Below are positions 9,797-17,208 of a stretch of DNA of 50,680 nt, one piece after another (position 1 is the stretch's first letter; each line of letters starts with the position of its first letter). The position numbers were made by a program, and so were the translations under genes. The notes beneath the pieces were generated by a model. That model was not told the DNA's origin. It worked only from the letters and a program-made list of their open reading frames with translations, and did no database searches. This DNA is from Ignavibacteria bacterium (GTDB lineage: Bacteria > Bacteroidota > Ignavibacteria > Tepidaquicellales > Tepidaquicellaceae). The DNA is taken from contig JABAQZ010000033.1 of the NCBI GenBank assembly GCA_019187405.1, positions 17,616-68,295 on the forward strand. The letters run 5' to 3'.

Positions 9797-10627
9797 CTAT
9801 CTCACCAGTATCATTCTCTTAACTTCAGAAAAAAATATTTCATTGTTATCAGAATCTTTAATCATGTTTCCGTTTAAATCGTAAGCGAATTGATCCTTAG
9901 TACCGGATACATTGTTAAGCTTGTTTGTTCCCGAGTTGTAAGCGTAAACAAAGTTGTCCTTTATTGTATTCGTATCTCCGTATCGCTTTAAAGTAGTGAT
10001 GTTGCCGTCTTTGTCATAAGTATTCTCGAGATGATATGTGTTGTCCTGTGTAATCTCATTGCTGACGTTCGTCAGACGGCTGCTTCTGTCATAACTATAT
10101 TTGAAAAACAATTCATCAGTATTTCTGAAGTTTTCCGCATACGAACCGTAAAAATACTGCAAGCTTACATTGCCGTTCTTACAGTATTCGTTTTCATAAA
10201 TTATCTGACTGATGCTGTTATACATTTGAGTTATCCAATTTCTGTTGTTATAAGCATAAGCATTGGTCAGAAATGTTCCGCCGTAATTCTGATTTTCAAT
10301 TAGTGAATTAGCATTATACTCGTAATTTGTAAAGTTTTTATATAGATAGCTTACATCCGTTCCTTCTTCTCCAAAATAATAATTCACCGTATCGAGCCGT
10401 CCTGCAAAATCATATCCGTAAATAAATCTTTTATAATCTATGCCTGTATTGTAATAAACATTTGTTATCTGATCCTGTGAATTGCATAAAGATCTTATTG
10501 TCATTTTTCCCGATAGGTTATAAAATTTATTTGTTTTAGAATAATTCTGTTGTGCATTTACAGACAATAATTGTAAAGGAAATATTATTATTGTTAAAAT
10601 ATATTTCAAAATATTGTATGAAAACAA
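9797..10627 (-). CDS. RHS core remnant with signal peptide, no toxin tip
   Basis: 276 residues and chimeric. Residues 1-25 are a signal peptide (ILTIIIFPLQLLSVNAQ) not shared with the large RHS protein. From about residue 50 (NSQDQITNVYYNTGIDYKR) it matches the YD-repeat region of the 17719-23298 protein. It ends abruptly, before the DPxG core-end motif, in FSEVKRMILVR. That ending resembles the last residues of a T9SS sorting domain (compare ETKRMVILK and VKKMILVK elsewhere in the window). No tip follows. This looks like a recombination product or decayed last cassette of the RHS array; whether it is expressed is unclear. Confidence 0.6.
   Translation of the reverse strand: MFSYNILKYILTIIIFPLQLLSVNAQQNYSKTNKFYNLSGKMTIRSLCNSQDQITNVYYNTGIDYKRFIYGYDFAGRLDTVNYYFGEEGTDVSYLYKNFTNYEYNANSLIENQNYGGTFLTNAYAYNNRNWITQMYNSISQIIYENEYCKNGNVSLQYFYGSYAENFRNTDELFFKYSYDRSSRLTNVSNEITQDNTYHLENTYDKDGNITTLKRYGDTNTIKDNFVYAYNSGTNKLNNVSGTKDQFAYDLNGNMIKDSDNNEIFFSEVKRMILVR
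10044..10243. repeat. RHS core repeat identical to 12574-12773
   Basis: 200 bp read as identical to 12574-12773 by direct line comparison; identity continues outward with single mismatches. It codes for YD-repeat core, so it marks recent exchange between the remnant and the hydrolase-tip cassette. Confidence 0.8.
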
Positions 10628-10705: not shown

Positions 10706-11053
10706 TCATAAGAGATCCTTGAATAGTTTAACATCGGAATAATGATTGAATATCATCATTGATATAATGAAAAGTATAAATGAAATTAAAATGTTTGAAT
10801 AGAATACTAATTTTAATAAAGTCTGTTTTTTTATAACCTTTCTAAAGAAAATTATAACAATGAAAAAGAAAACAAGGTATAAAATAAAATTTATTGTGGA
10901 AAACAATACCAATGTCCATAAGTTGGAAATACTTAAAATAAAACTTAAATCTAAAAGGCAAATATGAAATTTGTAAAATTCATTTATATAAGAAAAAACA
11001 AAATATATATTTATAACAAGAAACAGATTGCAAAAAATTTTTAATATTTTCAT
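10706..11053 (-). CDS. Small membrane protein, candidate immunity to hydrolase tip
   Basis: 115 residues with three likely membrane helices (about 5-23, 30-75 containing the second, and 85-110) and short polar ends. No family recognised. It lies 46 bp downstream of the alpha/beta-hydrolase RHS cassette on the same strand, the position where immunity genes sit in polymorphic toxin loci. A membrane location would suit protection against an enzyme attacking membrane lipids. The role rests on position and topology only. Confidence 0.55.
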   Translation of the reverse strand: MKILKIFCNLFLVINIYFVFSYINEFYKFHICLLDLSFILSISNLWTLVLFSTINFILYLVFFFIVIIFFRKVIKKQTLLKLVFYSNILISFILFIISMMIFNHYSDVKLFKDLL

Positions 11054-11099
11054 TATAGAGTAATTAAAAGTTATTAAATAGCTTTAACTTTGTAATACT

Positions 11100-12896
11100 C
11101 TATTCAATTTTGTTAAAAATTATTCTTAATACATCGTTTAAAGTTTTTTCGTCAATTGATAAGTGATTCGAATTTTTTACTACTTTATTCCGAACTCTTG
11201 TTTTTGAACTTGTTGGTGTATTTATTGTACCCCTTGCACCAATTAGTGCGTCAGGAGCAAGTTGAAAATAATTAAAATTTTCTTTGGTGTTTTCTGGGAT
11301 TGTAAATCCTGAAGTTTCCGCTAAGCCCTCATAAGCATCTACCGTAAATAATAGATTTACTTTTATTCCATTATCATTTAAGTAGTTTGCAAGCTCAACA
11401 GCATTTGCACCACCCTGACTGTAACCATAAATGATAACTTCCTCATCCGGATTATCAAGATTATTAATTATAAAATCAGCTGCTTCAGTTATTTCATTTT
11501 TTGGTCCGAATAATCCTAAGGAAGAAAAATATCCTCTGATATCCAAATCCCTCTTTCCACTTTTATCTGCAAAAGTTTGAAGACCATATAGTAATCTTTC
11601 TGCGCCTACACTTGAGGTTGGAGAATAATCATTTGGGGATATTTCATTACCTGCATTGTAATATCCTGCTCCGCTTAATACAACGATTACATCTAAACCA
11701 TTAATGTCAATGAGTTTTAATGGATTATTCAAAGAATAATTGTAGGGACTTAATTGTGGATACTTATCCAGCAACGGCTCCATCTGTCCCCATCTCCCCA
11801 CCCTCGAATCATAATACCTCGACCCAAAATAATCATACTCGCTCTCCTTATCTCTCTCCTTCCCGGTAAATTTATACTTCGTAGAATCAGAATCAAATGT
11901 CCTCCCTTCAAGTAAATACCCCCATGCATCGTAATCCTGTGCAGATATTAGTTCCCCGTTATCATTTACTATTGCTCTCACTGATCCAAGAGGATCTTTG
12001 TAAAAATAATATCCAGTCGTTCCTCTTATTTTTCCTTCCATCCCGTTACCCTGCACATACCACTCGACAAGCGTCGTATCTTTATATGCTGCAAGCTCAT
12101 TCCCGGTTATTCCTCTCACATAAAATTCATTTTGATATAATACCCATCCGTTGCCGGGATTGGTGAGATTATTCCAGTCCAATATAGGTCCTGCATATTC
12201 ATTCGAGTTAGTGTAAATTAGTTTTCTGTTTCTATTGCCTGATTCATCCCGCCACGGCGGGCAGGCATAGAAGTATCTTGTTGCATATAATGTTACACGT
12301 GTCGGAGATGCTCCTTTTTTGTGATAAATTTCTGTAATTAAATTTCTGTAGTCATATTTAATATCATAATTTACATTCAGTTTATCATCAATCAAGTTTC
12401 CATTGTAGTCATAAGAAAACTGATCCTTCGAACCGTTTACATTATTCAGTTTGTTTGTTCCCGAGTTGTAAGCGTAAATAAAGTTGTCCTTTATTGTATT
12501 CGTATCTCCGTATCGTTTTAAAGTTGTAATGTTCCCGTCTTTGTCATAAGTATTCTCGAGATGATATGTGTTATCCTGTGTAATCTCATTGCTGACGTTC
12601 GTCAGACGGCTGCTTCTGTCATAACTATATTTGAAAAACAATTCATCAGTATTTCTGAAGTTTTCCGCATACGAACCGTAAAAATACTGCAAGCTTACAT
12701 TGCCGTTCTTACAGTATTCGTTTTCATAAATTATCTGACTGATGCTGTTATACATTTGAGTTATCCAATTTCTATTATTATAAATATATGCATTCGTAAA
12801 AAAAGACCAAAATAGTAATGATATTGACCAAATACTAAAATAATTATTTAGAAATTCCTTTTCCAGTTGAAGCATTACATTTTTTTTCGACTTCAT
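11100..12896 (-). CDS. Orphan RHS cassette with alpha/beta-hydrolase (lipase-like) tip
   Basis: 598 residues. Residues 1-40 are new sequence with a hydrophobic stretch; from NNRNWITQMYNS onward it follows the RHS core of the large protein up to the core end (YFGSRYYDSRVGRWGQMEP...NNPLKLIDINGLD, about residue 400). The variable tip (about 400-598) has a serine hydrolase nucleophile elbow GYSQGG with Ser493. Candidate triad partners are Asp520 (TVDAYEG) and His578 (NSNHLSID), in the right order for a class-3 lipase/alpha-beta hydrolase. A phospholipase-like toxin is inferred. An in-frame palindromic insertion adds CPPWRD within the core. No clean signal peptide, so export as encoded is doubtful; it may serve as a donor for the main gene. 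Confidence 0.8.
   Translation of the reverse strand: MKSKKNVMLQLEKEFLNNYFSIWSISLLFWSFFTNAYIYNNRNWITQMYNSISQIIYENEYCKNGNVSLQYFYGSYAENFRNTDELFFKYSYDRSSRLTNVSNEITQDNTYHLENTYDKDGNITTLKRYGDTNTIKDNFIYAYNSGTNKLNNVNGSKDQFSYDYNGNLIDDKLNVNYDIKYDYRNLITEIYHKKGASPTRVTLYATRYFYACPPWRDESGNRNRKLIYTNSNEYAGPILDWNNLTNPGNGWVLYQNEFYVRGITGNELAAYKDTTLVEWYVQGNGMEGKIRGTTGYYFYKDPLGSVRAIVNDNGELISAQDYDAWGYLLEGRTFDSDSTKYKFTGKERDKESEYDYFGSRYYDSRVGRWGQMEPLLDKYPQLSPYNYSLNNPLKLIDINGLDVIVVLSGAGYYNAGNEISPNDYSPTSSVGAERLLYGLQTFADKSGKRDLDIRGYFSSLGLFGPKNEITEAADFIINNLDNPDEEVIIYGYSQGGANAVELANYLNDNGIKVNLLFTVDAYEGLAETSGFTIPENTKENFNYFQLAPDALIGARGTINTPTSSKTRVRNKVVKNSNHLSIDEKTLNDVLRIIFNKIE
12244..12566. repeat. RHS core repeat identical to 16739-17061
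   Basis: 323 bp read as identical to 16739-17061, flanked by mismatches on both sides. It includes the GC-rich hairpin insertion at 12248-12261, so both cassettes inherited that insertion from one event. Confidence 0.85.
12246..12266. repeat. In-frame palindromic insertion in RHS core
   Basis: Relative to the 13785-15044 and 17719-23298 copies, the sequence has 18 extra bases containing CCCGCCACGGCGGG (stem CCCGCC/GGCGGG). It leaves the frame intact and adds six residues (ACPPWRD region). The same insertion is at 16741-16761. GC-rich and unlike the AT-rich host gene, it resembles a small palindromic element that enters coding sequence in frame. Confidence 0.7.
12841..12879. repeat. Cassette-boundary repeat with TTGAAGCATTACA
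   Basis: TTGAAGCATTACA occurs at 10666-10678, 12867-12879 and 13040-13052, each on the 5' side of an RHS segment. The first two also share ATTTAGAAATT about 12-13 bp earlier (10644 and 12847 onward); the second and third share CCTTT(T)CCA just before it. A shorter TTGAAGCATTA is at 3347-3357. It may be the edge of the duplicated unit. Confidence 0.5.
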
Positions 12897-13784: not shown

Positions 13785-15044
13785 TTATCTAAAAGGTTGA
13801 GTTGAACGATTTTTGAAGTACAAAGAATTATAATTGAAATTAAAATACCCAATTGTGTATGCTTGAACTTCATTAAACTCATCTAATCTTTTGTTAGCTC
13901 CAATACTATATAAATGACCTGCAATATTAGCAATGTCTAAGTTTATTCCAAGCTTATTTATTGCTGCACCAAAAATTACATTTCCTGCTTCTTCATAATT
14001 CATTGCTATATTATTAAAAACGTACAATGAATATTTTTGGAGAAATCTTTTTTGATCTAATTTTCGTCCGCTTGGTCCCTCTTTTAATGCATATCTATAT
14101 CTATCCTTCAAATCAGACGGTGCACCGTCTAAAGCCTCTGATAATCTGTAAGAAAAACCTTCTTTGGTTATTAAGCTTTCCCAGTTAGCTACTACTCTAT
14201 CCCATCCTTTAAATTGCGTAACGGTTGCTTCACTAAGGGTTTCAAAATAATGATTTCCTTCATATTCAACATTTCCTGATTCACTCTGAACATAATATGT
14301 ATCCCCAAATAACCAATCAAAATCCCAAAACCCACTTTTTTTTCGATTAACCTCTTCTCCCTTTTTAAAATAAATATCATCAAGTCCATGAGGGTCAATT
14401 CTATTGATCGGATTATTACTTGTATAATGATATGGCGTTTTTGAAGGTTCATTACTCAAAAGCGGATCTACTCTTCCCCATCTCCCCAACCTAGAATCAT
14501 AATATCTCGCACCAAAATAATCATACTCACTCTCTTTATCTCTTTCCTTTTCTGTGAATTTGTATTTCGTAGAATCAGAATCAAAAATTCTATTCTGAAG
14601 CAAATACCCCCACCCGTCATAATCTTGTGCAGAAACTAACTCTCCGTTATCATTATAAACAGCTCTCACAGAACCCAAATGATCCTTGTAATAATAATAC
14701 CCGGTCGTTCCTTTTATTTTTCCTTCGATACCATTTCCCTGCACATACCATTCAACAAGTGTTGTATCTTTATATGTCGCAAGTTCATTACCATTTATTC
14801 CTCTTACATAAAATTCATTTTGATATAATACCCATCCGTTGCCGGGATTGCTTAAGTTATTCCAGTCTAAAACAGGTCCCGCAAATTCATTTGAGTTAGT
14901 GTATATTAGTTTTCTGTTTCTATTGCCTGCATCGTCATAGAAGTACCTTGTTGCAAATAATGTTACTCTTGCCGGCGATGCTCCTCTTTTGTGATAAATT
15001 TCTGTAATTAAATTTCTGTAGTCACAATTATATTTTGATATCAT
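13785..15044 (-). CDS. Orphan RHS cassette with unidentified tip (possible toxin-44-like)
   Basis: 419 residues. The first six or so are unique; from DYRNLITEIYHK it follows the RHS core to YFGARYYDSRLGRWGRVDPL...NNPINRIDPHG (about residue 217). The tip (218-419) is unlike the others. Its end, EEAGNVIFGAAINKLGI followed by an AGHLYS helix, recalls the 'bacterial toxin 44' pattern of polymorphic toxins, but the match is from memory and weak. No signal peptide. A block of 343 bp just before the tip is identical to the main RHS gene, which would make it a ready template for tip exchange. The partner is the coupled lipoprotein at 13143-13784. Confidence 0.75.
   Translation of the reverse strand: MISKYNCDYRNLITEIYHKRGASPARVTLFATRYFYDDAGNRNRKLIYTNSNEFAGPVLDWNNLSNPGNGWVLYQNEFYVRGINGNELATYKDTTLVEWYVQGNGIEGKIKGTTGYYYYKDHLGSVRAVYNDNGELVSAQDYDGWGYLLQNRIFDSDSTKYKFTEKERDKESEYDYFGARYYDSRLGRWGRVDPLLSNEPSKTPYHYTSNNPINRIDPHGLDDIYFKKGEEVNRKKSGFWDFDWLFGDTYYVQSESGNVEYEGNHYFETLSEATVTQFKGWDRVVANWESLITKEGFSYRLSEALDGAPSDLKDRYRYALKEGPSGRKLDQKRFLQKYSLYVFNNIAMNYEEAGNVIFGAAINKLGINLDIANIAGHLYSIGANKRLDEFNEVQAYTIGYFNFNYNSLYFKNRSTQPFR
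14516..14858. repeat. RHS core repeat identical to 18432-18774
   Basis: 343 bp read base by base as identical to 18432-18774 in the main RHS gene (constant offset 3916). Identity breaks exactly where the tip-proximal sequences diverge on one side and at a single substitution on the other. Confidence 0.9.
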
Positions 15045-15117: not shown

Positions 15118-15609
15118 TTATAGTAATTTGTTTAATAGAAAATGACATAAAAATATTAAAAGTAGCAGTAATGCTTTTAAGCCTATAGTATTTCTATCCA
15201 AACTTCCTACAAAAAATAATAAAAAAATACATTCAACTGTACTTCCATATAATCCCAAATTATTTGCTCCTATTGGTAAATTTTGGTGATTACCAATCCC
15301 ACCATAATACCAGAACGTACTGTAAATCAATTCAGTCCATATTAATGAAATACTTAATAAACAAAATGTCAAGATTATTTTAGTATTTATATTTCTAACT
15401 TTGTTTTTTTTATAACTAAGCAAATAAATTATTAATAGAAGAATCAATAATGAATCTATAATAATACTAAGTAAGTATAGAGAATAAATATATTGATTTT
15501 GAAAATAGGCATAATCCGGAAAATATTCCGGCACGTTTATCAAGCTAAAATTTGTAAGAATAAACACACTTAAAATAAAAATCATTAAAAAAGATAAAAT
15601 CATTTTCAT
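15118..15609 (-). CDS. Multi-pass membrane protein, candidate immunity (paralogue of 17208-17711)
   Basis: 163 residues with four to five predicted membrane helices. It shares with the 17208-17711 protein the layout and a conserved loop: WxELIYSxxxYYGGIGNHQxLP...NNLGLYGS. No named family recognised. It starts 9 bp after the second Tlde1-like tip (15619-16026). Two related tips each followed by a related membrane protein is strong contextual evidence of a toxin-immunity pair. The conserved loop after the third helix would probably face one side of the membrane and may contact the toxin. Confidence 0.7.
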   Translation of the reverse strand: MKMILSFLMIFILSVFILTNFSLINVPEYFPDYAYFQNQYIYSLYLLSIIIDSLLILLLIIYLLSYKKNKVRNINTKIILTFCLLSISLIWTELIYSTFWYYGGIGNHQNLPIGANNLGLYGSTVECIFLLFFVGSLDRNTIGLKALLLLLIFLCHFLLNKLL

Positions 15610-15618
15610 AATAGATTT

Positions 15619-16026
15619 TCAATATTTAACATTTAACAACATTGATCTATTTTTGAAAATGAAAGTATTAAAAAATCCTTTCATTCCCGAAGTTAAATCT
15701 ATACATCCTATTGAACCTGCTTCTTCCCCTCCATGGATTGAAAATCCACTTTTTCTTAGTGTTGGATTATCAGGTGTTGGATAAATATTTATGTACTCCA
15801 TTCCCCTGGATCTTTTTTGCATTTTCCAACTAATAATATCATATATACTTTTAGCATCTTTCTCATATGAGAATGCATTCTGCAGATCCACGCTCCACCA
15901 TCCTTCCGGAATTGGACCGACATTTTCTTCACTCTGTAAACTAGGTTGAGTTCTATCAAATTCATCTAATATACCTGATGCTGCTGCCCATCTCATAATT
16001 TCTCCACTCTCCATTAACCATTGCAA
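15619..16026 (-). CDS. Tlde1-like toxin tip severed from its RHS core by an in-frame stop
   Basis: 135 residues counted from the first ATG, but the frame is open from 16143 and is the same frame as the RHS fragment 16144-17208, interrupted only by TAA at 16144-16146. The translation parallels the tip of the main RHS protein: LQWLMESGEIM...DEFDRTQPS...GPIPEGWW...FSIHGGEEAGSIGCIDL. The HGG...S-x-GC pattern with upstream GPIPxGxW is that of Tlde1/DUF2778 L,D-transpeptidase-like enzymes acting on peptidoglycan. The ATG is probably not a true start; most likely a pseudogene half or silent donor. Confidence 0.7.
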   Translation of the reverse strand: MQWLMESGEIMRWAAASGILDEFDRTQPSLQSEENVGPIPEGWWSVDLQNAFSYEKDAKSIYDIISWKMQKRSRGMEYINIYPTPDNPTLRKSGFSIHGGEEAGSIGCIDLTSGMKGFFNTFIFKNRSMLLNVKY

Positions 16027-16143
16027 TTCACTTCCTTGGAAAAATAATAATTCTTTATATCCTTGAACATTTTCATAAATCTTATTCCCTTTTTCATCAT
16101 ACCCCCCTGTCCAAATATTTTTCCAAGGCTCGTTTTCAAAAAA

Positions 16144-17208
16144 TTACCAACTTGATTTTCCATTTTCCTCATACATTTGGTACCATTCTTCTCCGGTCGG
16201 ATCTATAATTCTCAATGGATTGTCAGCACAATAAATGTAGCTGCCCCAACCAAAACTACTTGCCGGGATCGGCTCTGAGGAATTGAAAATTCCAATTCTT
16301 GAATCGTAATTACGAGCATAAGAATAATCATACTCACTCTCTTTATCTCTTTCCTTTCCTGTGAATTTGTATTTCGAAGAATCAGAATCATAACTTCTAT
16401 TTTGAAGAAGATATCCCCACCCGTCATAATCCTGCGCCGAAACCAAATCACCATTATCACTCACGACAGCTCTCACTGATCCAAGATGATCTTTGTAATA
16501 ATAATACCCGGTCGTTCCTTTTATTTTTCCTTCGATACCATTTCCCTGCACATACCATTCAACAAGTGTTGTATCTTTATATGTCGCAAGTTCATTACCA
16601 TTTATTCCTCTTACATAAAATTCATTTTGAAATAATACCCATCCGTTTCCGGGATTGCTTAAGTTATTCCAGTCTAAGACAGGTCCTGCAAATTCATTCG
16701 AGTTAGTGTAAATTAGTTTTCTGTTTCTATTGCCTGCATCATCCCGCCACGGCGGGCAGGCATAGAAGTATCTTGTTGCATATAATGTTACACGTGTCGG
16801 AGATGCTCCTTTTTTGTGATAAATTTCTGTAATTAAATTTCTGTAGTCATATTTAATATCATAATTTACATTCAGTTTATCATCAATCAAGTTTCCATTG
16901 TAGTCATAAGAAAACTGATCCTTCGAACCGTTTACATTATTCAGTTTGTTTGTTCCCGAGTTGTAAGCGTAAATAAAGTTGTCCTTTATTGTATTCGTAT
17001 CTCCGTATCGTTTTAAAGTTGTAATGTTCCCGTCTTTGTCATAAGTATTCTCGAGATGATAAGTGTTATCCTGTGTGATTTCATTGCTGACGTTTATCAG
17101 GCGGTTGCTCATGTCATAATTGTATTTGAAAAAAAATTCATCAGTATTTCTGAAGTTTTTCGCATACGAGCCGTAAAAATACTGCGAGCTAACATTTCTA
17201 TTATTCAT
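16144..17208 (-). CDS. Orphan RHS core fragment, truncated before its tip
   Basis: 354 residues. It opens with MNNRNVSSQYFYGSY, which joins NNRN to a later point of the core (the main protein has about 23 more residues between), so an internal deletion formed this 5' end. It then follows the RHS core to NNPLRIIDPTGEEW and stops at TAA 16144-16146, where the main gene has a glutamate codon in the same context (KGNWEFFE versus KSSW-stop-FF). Its ATG (17206-17208) overlaps the TAA of the upstream membrane protein as TAATG, which could couple translation. It carries the CPPWRD palindromic insertion. No signal peptide. Confidence 0.65.
   Translation of the reverse strand: MNNRNVSSQYFYGSYAKNFRNTDEFFFKYNYDMSNRLINVSNEITQDNTYHLENTYDKDGNITTLKRYGDTNTIKDNFIYAYNSGTNKLNNVNGSKDQFSYDYNGNLIDDKLNVNYDIKYDYRNLITEIYHKKGASPTRVTLYATRYFYACPPWRDDAGNRNRKLIYTNSNEFAGPVLDWNNLSNPGNGWVLFQNEFYVRGINGNELATYKDTTLVEWYVQGNGIEGKIKGTTGYYYYKDHLGSVRAVVSDNGDLVSAQDYDGWGYLLQNRSYDSDSSKYKFTGKERDKESEYDYSYARNYDSRIGIFNSSEPIPASSFGWGSYIYCADNPLRIIDPTGEEWYQMYEENGKSSW
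16739..17061. repeat. RHS core repeat identical to 12244-12566
   Basis: Partner of the 323-bp identical block at 12244-12566 (offset 4495); includes the palindromic insertion at 16743-16756. Confidence 0.85.

Follow-up and report, generated by a model that had tools for sequence, protein, structure and literature searches.

The window, i.e., the whole stretch of DNA that was analyzed, comprises 50,680 nt from an Ignavibacteria bacterium (GCA_019187405.1, contig JABAQZ010000033.1, positions 17,616 to 68,295, forward strand). It carries a full-length RHS gene, followed by three displaced cassettes and a stub, all on the minus strand (Table 1). The gene with the lipase-like tip, P0001 (ORF 11100-12896, 598 aa), is one of these displaced cassettes behind the full-length RHS gene, and P0002 (115 aa) starts 46 nt after the P0001 stop codon. 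TIGR03696 matched residues 322-401 of P0001, directly before the variable tip, at 58.1 bits against a cut-off of 32.5. In cassette 1 (15619-17208), a second Tlde1-like tip is interrupted by an early stop, while the gene for its hydrophobic partner is still open. The terminus of the stub (9797-10627), KRMILVR, resembles the type IX secretion tails of adjacent genes.

Table 1. Features of the RHS locus, in window coordinates.
Feature	Position	Strand	Basis or remark
Full-length main RHS gene, 1859 aa	17719..23298	-	Signal-like N-terminus; tip of the L,D-transpeptidase/Tlde1 kind, label taken from the homologous copy in cassette 1
Polytopic partner of the main RHS tip, 167 aa	17208..17711	-	
Displaced cassette 1: piece of RHS core that runs into a stop shortly after its tip begins	16144..17208	-	
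Rest of the cassette 1 Tlde1-like tip	15619..16026	-	PF10908 E 0.0037 and PF03734 E 0.0043, both below cut-off
Cassette 1 partner, 163 aa, hydrophobic	15118..15609	-	
Displaced cassette 2, other tip	13785..15044	-	
Cassette 2 partner, lipoprotein-like, 213 aa	13143..13784	-	
RHS core fragment of P0001, 400 aa, carrying the lipase-like tip	11697..12896	-	TIGR03696; DNA similarity to the main RHS gene
Predicted alpha/beta-hydrolase tip, 198 aa + stop, P0001 residues 401-598	11100..11696	-	Predicted fold, PDB comparisons, relatives, alignment
Ser493 codon, nucleophile elbow GYSQGG	11418..11420	-	Invariant in 8/8 intact tips
Asp520 codon, TVDAY, end of the following strand	11337..11339	-	Invariant in 8/8 intact tips
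His578 codon, NSNHLSIDE, start of the last helix	11163..11165	-	Invariant in 8/8 intact tips
P0002, small polytopic membrane protein, probable cognate immunity protein	10706..11053	-	Hydropathy, model, same-kind partner in 9/9 close members
Stub: signal-like start, RHS core piece, type IX secretion tail-like end	9797..10627	-	

Core DNA of the lipase cassette is 80.4% identical to that of the main RHS gene over 976 bp, the longest exact stretch being 102 bp, and 90.2% identical to that of cassette 1 over 874 bp, with an exact stretch of 323 bp; RHS DNA is also shared with the stub (92.4% over 420 bp). Most of the main RHS gene's N-terminal part is absent from P0001, and no clear signal peptide or other recognizable export signal of its own was found in it, its start codon being only inferred. 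No Bacteroidota-type promoter pattern was evident for the cassette, and the number of sigma-70-like sites (26 found, 21.5 expected) showed no evident excess. The cassette is probably silent until recombined. This arrangement resembles the orphan rhs-CT/rhsI modules of Salmonella Typhimurium LT2, for which recombination onto the main rhs gene is described as demonstrated (PMC3967940); according to that account, an RHS fragment with its tip and immunity gene lies downstream of a full-length rhs gene there as well, shares core DNA with it and carries no export signals. The present locus differs from the modules of that account in the organism and the tips, in having several fragments in a row, and in a core identity to the main gene of 80-91% as against 95% (PMC3967940). 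Recombination may be inefficient at a core identity as low as 80%. The bacterium's own genome, which is 98.1% complete, contains SprA of type IX secretion, and VipB of the type VI secretion system (T6SS; PF05943) had 0 matches in it.

Two short repeats were observed in this region. A GC-rich near-palindrome, TGCCTGCCCGCCGTGGCGGG in minus-strand reading, is present in the cores of two cassettes (window 12248 and 16743), where it inserts about six in-frame codons (ACPPWR); with up to 2 mismatches allowed, only these two copies were found genome-wide, none of them in the main RHS gene or cassette 2. TTGAAGCATTACA is repeated near the borders of the lipase cassette (window 10666, 12867 and 13040). 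The copies of TTGAAGCATTACA may be what is left of a mobile element or of junctions between cassettes.

Putative active-site residues, predicted fold and relatives of the tip

The initial annotation placed Ser493 (in GYSQGG), Asp520 and His578 of P0001 in canonical order, and the translation agrees exactly, with the elbow at residues 491-496. It also took the tip for an alpha/beta hydrolase, and the predicted model points the same way: built from only four aligned sequences (mean pLDDT 81.9, pTM 0.87), it has the nucleophile, acid and histidine in order at the standard places of that fold. In tip numbering, strand 87-92 and helix 94-107 flank Ser93, Asp120 comes right after strand 113-119, and His178 opens helix 178-197. 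When the model was compared with the PDB, 16 chains were matched at E 0.001 or better. The best row in VIA-align was 4m0m (Z 16.9, 2.6 A, 184 aligned); Tle1 of the T6SS (6ski) scored Z 14.4 (3.3 A, 170 aligned), and the next rows were esterases, LCAT, lipases and cutinases at Z 12.4-13.7, with 851 of the 1000 compared chains reaching Z 8 or more.

Relatives were sought in genome samples from the class (294 and 391 genomes), the family (29) and the phylum (395), with either the tip itself or alignments of it as the query. The searches found 14 places in 12 genomes, and 12 of the 14 are RHS tips; no RHS core was seen in the proteins matched in G604 and G671, and the pair count omits these two. 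Nine close members occur in eight genomes (the window, G083, G013, G127, G097, G394, two in G543, and G613). The G127 tip contains one in-frame stop, its partner being open, and was kept out of the tip alignments. The other intact close tips are 25-46% identical to the window tip. A wider contig scan returned three loci that were taken as those of G083, G013 and G097 and not counted again. Outside the phylum, no tip match was found in plasmids and none was confirmed in viral contigs.

The alignment of the eight intact tips (seven genomes) contains eight invariant columns, among them the serine, the aspartate and the histidine. The GxSxG motif alone would be weak evidence, since it is also present in 4 of 34 intact non-hydrolase RHS tips of the family; the signal in the tip exceeds chance because all three residues are invariant and the fold is predicted. 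The elbow reads GYSxGG in seven of the eight tips and GHSKG in one. A second, different hydrolase tip (GHSMGG) adjoins the first pair in G394 (L031:4643-5811), followed by a mildly hydrophobic 112-aa partner with one strong segment.

The membrane partner and its recurrence

P0002 was originally described as almost entirely membrane-embedded with three helices. This description holds up fairly well: the GRAVY is 1.37, four 19-residue windows reach a KD value of 1.6 or more (two of them adjacent), and a low-confidence AlphaFold model (pLDDT 71.6, pTM 0.39) contains long helices at 2-41, 45-73 and 78-107. A basic run, RKVIKK, follows the second helix. Basic stretches face the cytoplasmic side according to the positive-inside rule; therefore, the first loop and the C-terminal tail of P0002 would face the periplasm.

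Directly downstream of each of the nine close tips, the stop-bearing one included, is the gene of a small protein of 88-141 aa in which three or more hydrophobic segments were counted by a simple hydropathy rule, the same for all partners. In several close pairs the toxin and partner genes overlap by 4 nt. As a control, we located TIGR03696 in the 29 family genomes, which gave 45 places in 12 genomes. An intact tip with a downstream ORF was present at 37 of these; the other eight were dropped (three ran off the contig, four had broken or masked tips, and one was without a downstream ORF). A partner with at least three hydrophobic segments accompanied 3/3 intact hydrolase tips and 2/34 other intact tips, both of which were Tlde1-like (one-sided Fisher p 0.0013, in a small sample whose homologous pairs are not independent). 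With two broken cases of known partner restored, the counts were 4/4 and 3/35. Thus, the recurrence of a small polytopic partner in 9/9 close members as against 2/34 others supports a toxin-immunity pair. The original proposal of a phospholipid-attacking toxin with immunity in the membrane thereby gains comparative support for its pairing and its polytopic partner, and we keep its phospholipid substrate as a conjecture.

We also considered that P0002 might be an accessory protein or an unrelated small membrane protein instead of an immunity protein. No Pfam family was matched at cut-off by P0002 or the other partners, the latter are only 10-31% identical to P0002, and one copy is solitary, all of which would suit such a role; the unbroken association in the nine close pairs, several with the overlap noted above, and the scarcity of P0002-like genes, found in only 2/391 class genomes, make it very unlikely. 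A housekeeping membrane protein was rejected on the same count, which was obtained with a two-protein profile. However, a membrane partner may not be a universal rule for hydrolase tips. A more distant RHS tip in G635 has a 118-aa partner with two strong segments, and two distant RHS hydrolase tips in G638 have no polytopic partner, the next proteins being 226 and 223 residues long with a single N-terminal segment; G638 counts against such a rule. The G638 tips (L081 and L082) have the elbows GHSFGG and GHSLGG, and the proteins that follow them are secreted, with type IX-like tails.

One further relative of P0002 was found among the 29 family genomes, in G175 (L092:6898-7281; 127 aa, 39% identical over its length), and it keeps the motifs INExYKxH and NHxSDVKLF. 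In the surrounding 13-kb stretch, tblastn with the main RHS protein and the tip gave no match, and no RHS-core or tip match was found in the G175 genome, in which a toxin could be missed as the genome is 91% complete. The flanking genes are, we presume, thymidylate-kinase-like and sulphur-transport-like. The simplest reading of these sequences is that the copy is an orphan immunity gene.

This solitary copy also bears on the possibility that the cassette in the window is a relic whose tip is no longer made or delivered, so that P0002 alone would matter, against lipase-bearing neighbors with a live RHS gene. The truncated N-terminal part of P0001, the want of an evident promoter and the G127 toxin with a stop beside an open partner would agree with such decay. 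Against this, a tip without use would decay, whereas that of the window is unbroken and retains all three residues; orphan RHS cassettes in Salmonella are also described as being activated by recombination (PMC3967940). We consider a relic improbable.

Proposed action, substrate and known systems

We propose that the locus most likely holds, as a displaced cassette, a conserved toxin-immunity pair of a lipid-attacking hydrolase with immunity in the membrane. The more specific reading, in which the tip is a serine hydrolase toxin acting on membrane lipids and P0002 is an inner-membrane immunity protein, appears reasonably probable. The last 198 residues of P0001 would form a small toxin of the alpha/beta-fold serine hydrolase kind, and P0002 would be its cognate immunity protein in the inner membrane. 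Recombination through the common core would join the tip to the full-length RHS gene; the joined tip would then be exported, delivered into the periplasm of a neighboring cell and hydrolyze acyl esters of membrane lipids there. The tip would be blocked at the membrane by P0002, whose periplasmic loop (about residues 24-48) and C-terminal tail would probably be the parts involved.

The partners of the remaining tips in the family control bear on the compartment. By crude rules, the N-terminus is hydrophobic and signal-like in 26 of 32, and a lipobox-like motif is present in 12 of the 26, suggesting that most toxins of the family RHS loci act in the periplasm. Since the other six of the 32 do not reach the signal-like threshold, three by a clear margin, the arsenal is not wholly periplasmic. 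Delivery of the window tip to the periplasm is likely on these sequence grounds and fits a membrane-lipid target.

The predicted fold does not by itself identify a substrate, and that it would be phospholipid is an inference. The window tip exceeded the cut-off of no curated Pfam family, the best being PF00975 Thioesterase (19.9 bits against 26.4, E 0.00092), and PADLOC gave no match at E 0.01. For a profile of the eight tips, the leading matches (4.6e-6 to 1.6e-4) were thioesterase domains from the synthetases of fengycin and surfactin, and Thioesterase, Cutinase and Tle1-like were each matched by 4/8 members. Judged by such profiles, nonribosomal peptide synthetase (NRPS) thioesterases fit the tip at least as well as lipases do, so the substrate may be other than phospholipid. 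Alternatively, within a toxin-immunity pair, the tip may be an enzyme of the thioesterase, amidase or esterase type whose target is not bulk phospholipid but, for example, a lipid-linked precursor, the acyl groups of lipoproteins or an acyl carrier. We give this alternative appreciable weight on account of the profile ranking and the Pfam match below cut-off but regard it as unlikely, since a partner embedded in the membrane speaks for a substrate that is bound to the membrane or linked to lipid, and action in the periplasm is suggested by the partners of other tips. The periplasm is not expected to contain acyl carrier proteins, which counts against an acyl-carrier substrate. In addition, the structure rows include many lipases and esterases, although most of them are tied within Z 1.

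Alpha/beta hydrolases as RHS tips are already known, since Zhang et al. 2012 listed three such toxin families, Tox-ABhydrolase-1, -2 and -3, in RHS and other polymorphic toxins and proposed that types 1 and 3 attack lipids (PMC3482391). The immunity proteins given in that listing are none, SUKH, or Imm66/Imm69, and none of them is described there as polytopic (PMC3482391). The published elbow signature of Tox-ABhydrolase-3, with which the tips were compared instead of with a profile, is GHSxG, in contrast to the GYSxGG that prevails here. The pair resembles Tle1/Tli of the T6SS, as described in PMC13133936, in its alpha/beta fold, periplasmic action site and weak match to PF09994; unlike Tle1, the window tip has about 200 residues and comes from a genome in which no VipB was found. 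Membership of the tip in Tle1 was rejected (PF09994, 16.1 bits against a cut-off of 27), also in view of the missing VipB match and the polytopic nature of P0002; the likeness in fold stands. Tli immunity proteins of T6SS lipases are described as having lipoprotein or Sec signals, not several membrane helices (PMC13133936), and as commonly periplasmic (PMC9846239). In the Tox-Act1/Imm-Act1 pair, Tox-Act1 is described as a phospholipase toxin that acts in the periplasm, and its immunity protein as transmembrane (PMC12994826); in that account, unlike the window pair, Tox-Act1 has a permuted NlpC/P60 papain-like fold and is delivered by the T6SS, and Imm-Act1 has two helices. A literature search, mainly of openly available papers, found no description of the tip family or of a P0002-type partner and no paper on RHS toxins of Ignavibacteria, a class that the nearest matches name once each.

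The nine pairs may constitute a distinct RHS toxin family of small alpha/beta hydrolases that are neutralized in the membrane by fast-diverging three-helix proteins, and not by periplasmic lipoproteins as in the case of T6SS lipases, with an immunity gene that also travels alone and protects toxin-free bacteria. This generalization is tentative, and we place it somewhat short of an even chance. If the immunity protein is polytopic, the toxin would be stopped at the membrane itself, perhaps by blocking its access to lipid. The nine pair examples form a ready set for studying how an inhibitor keeps pace with its toxin, and the solitary P0002 homologue makes acquired protection testable. As a further observation on the family RHS loci, many of the other tips contain HExxH-like motifs.
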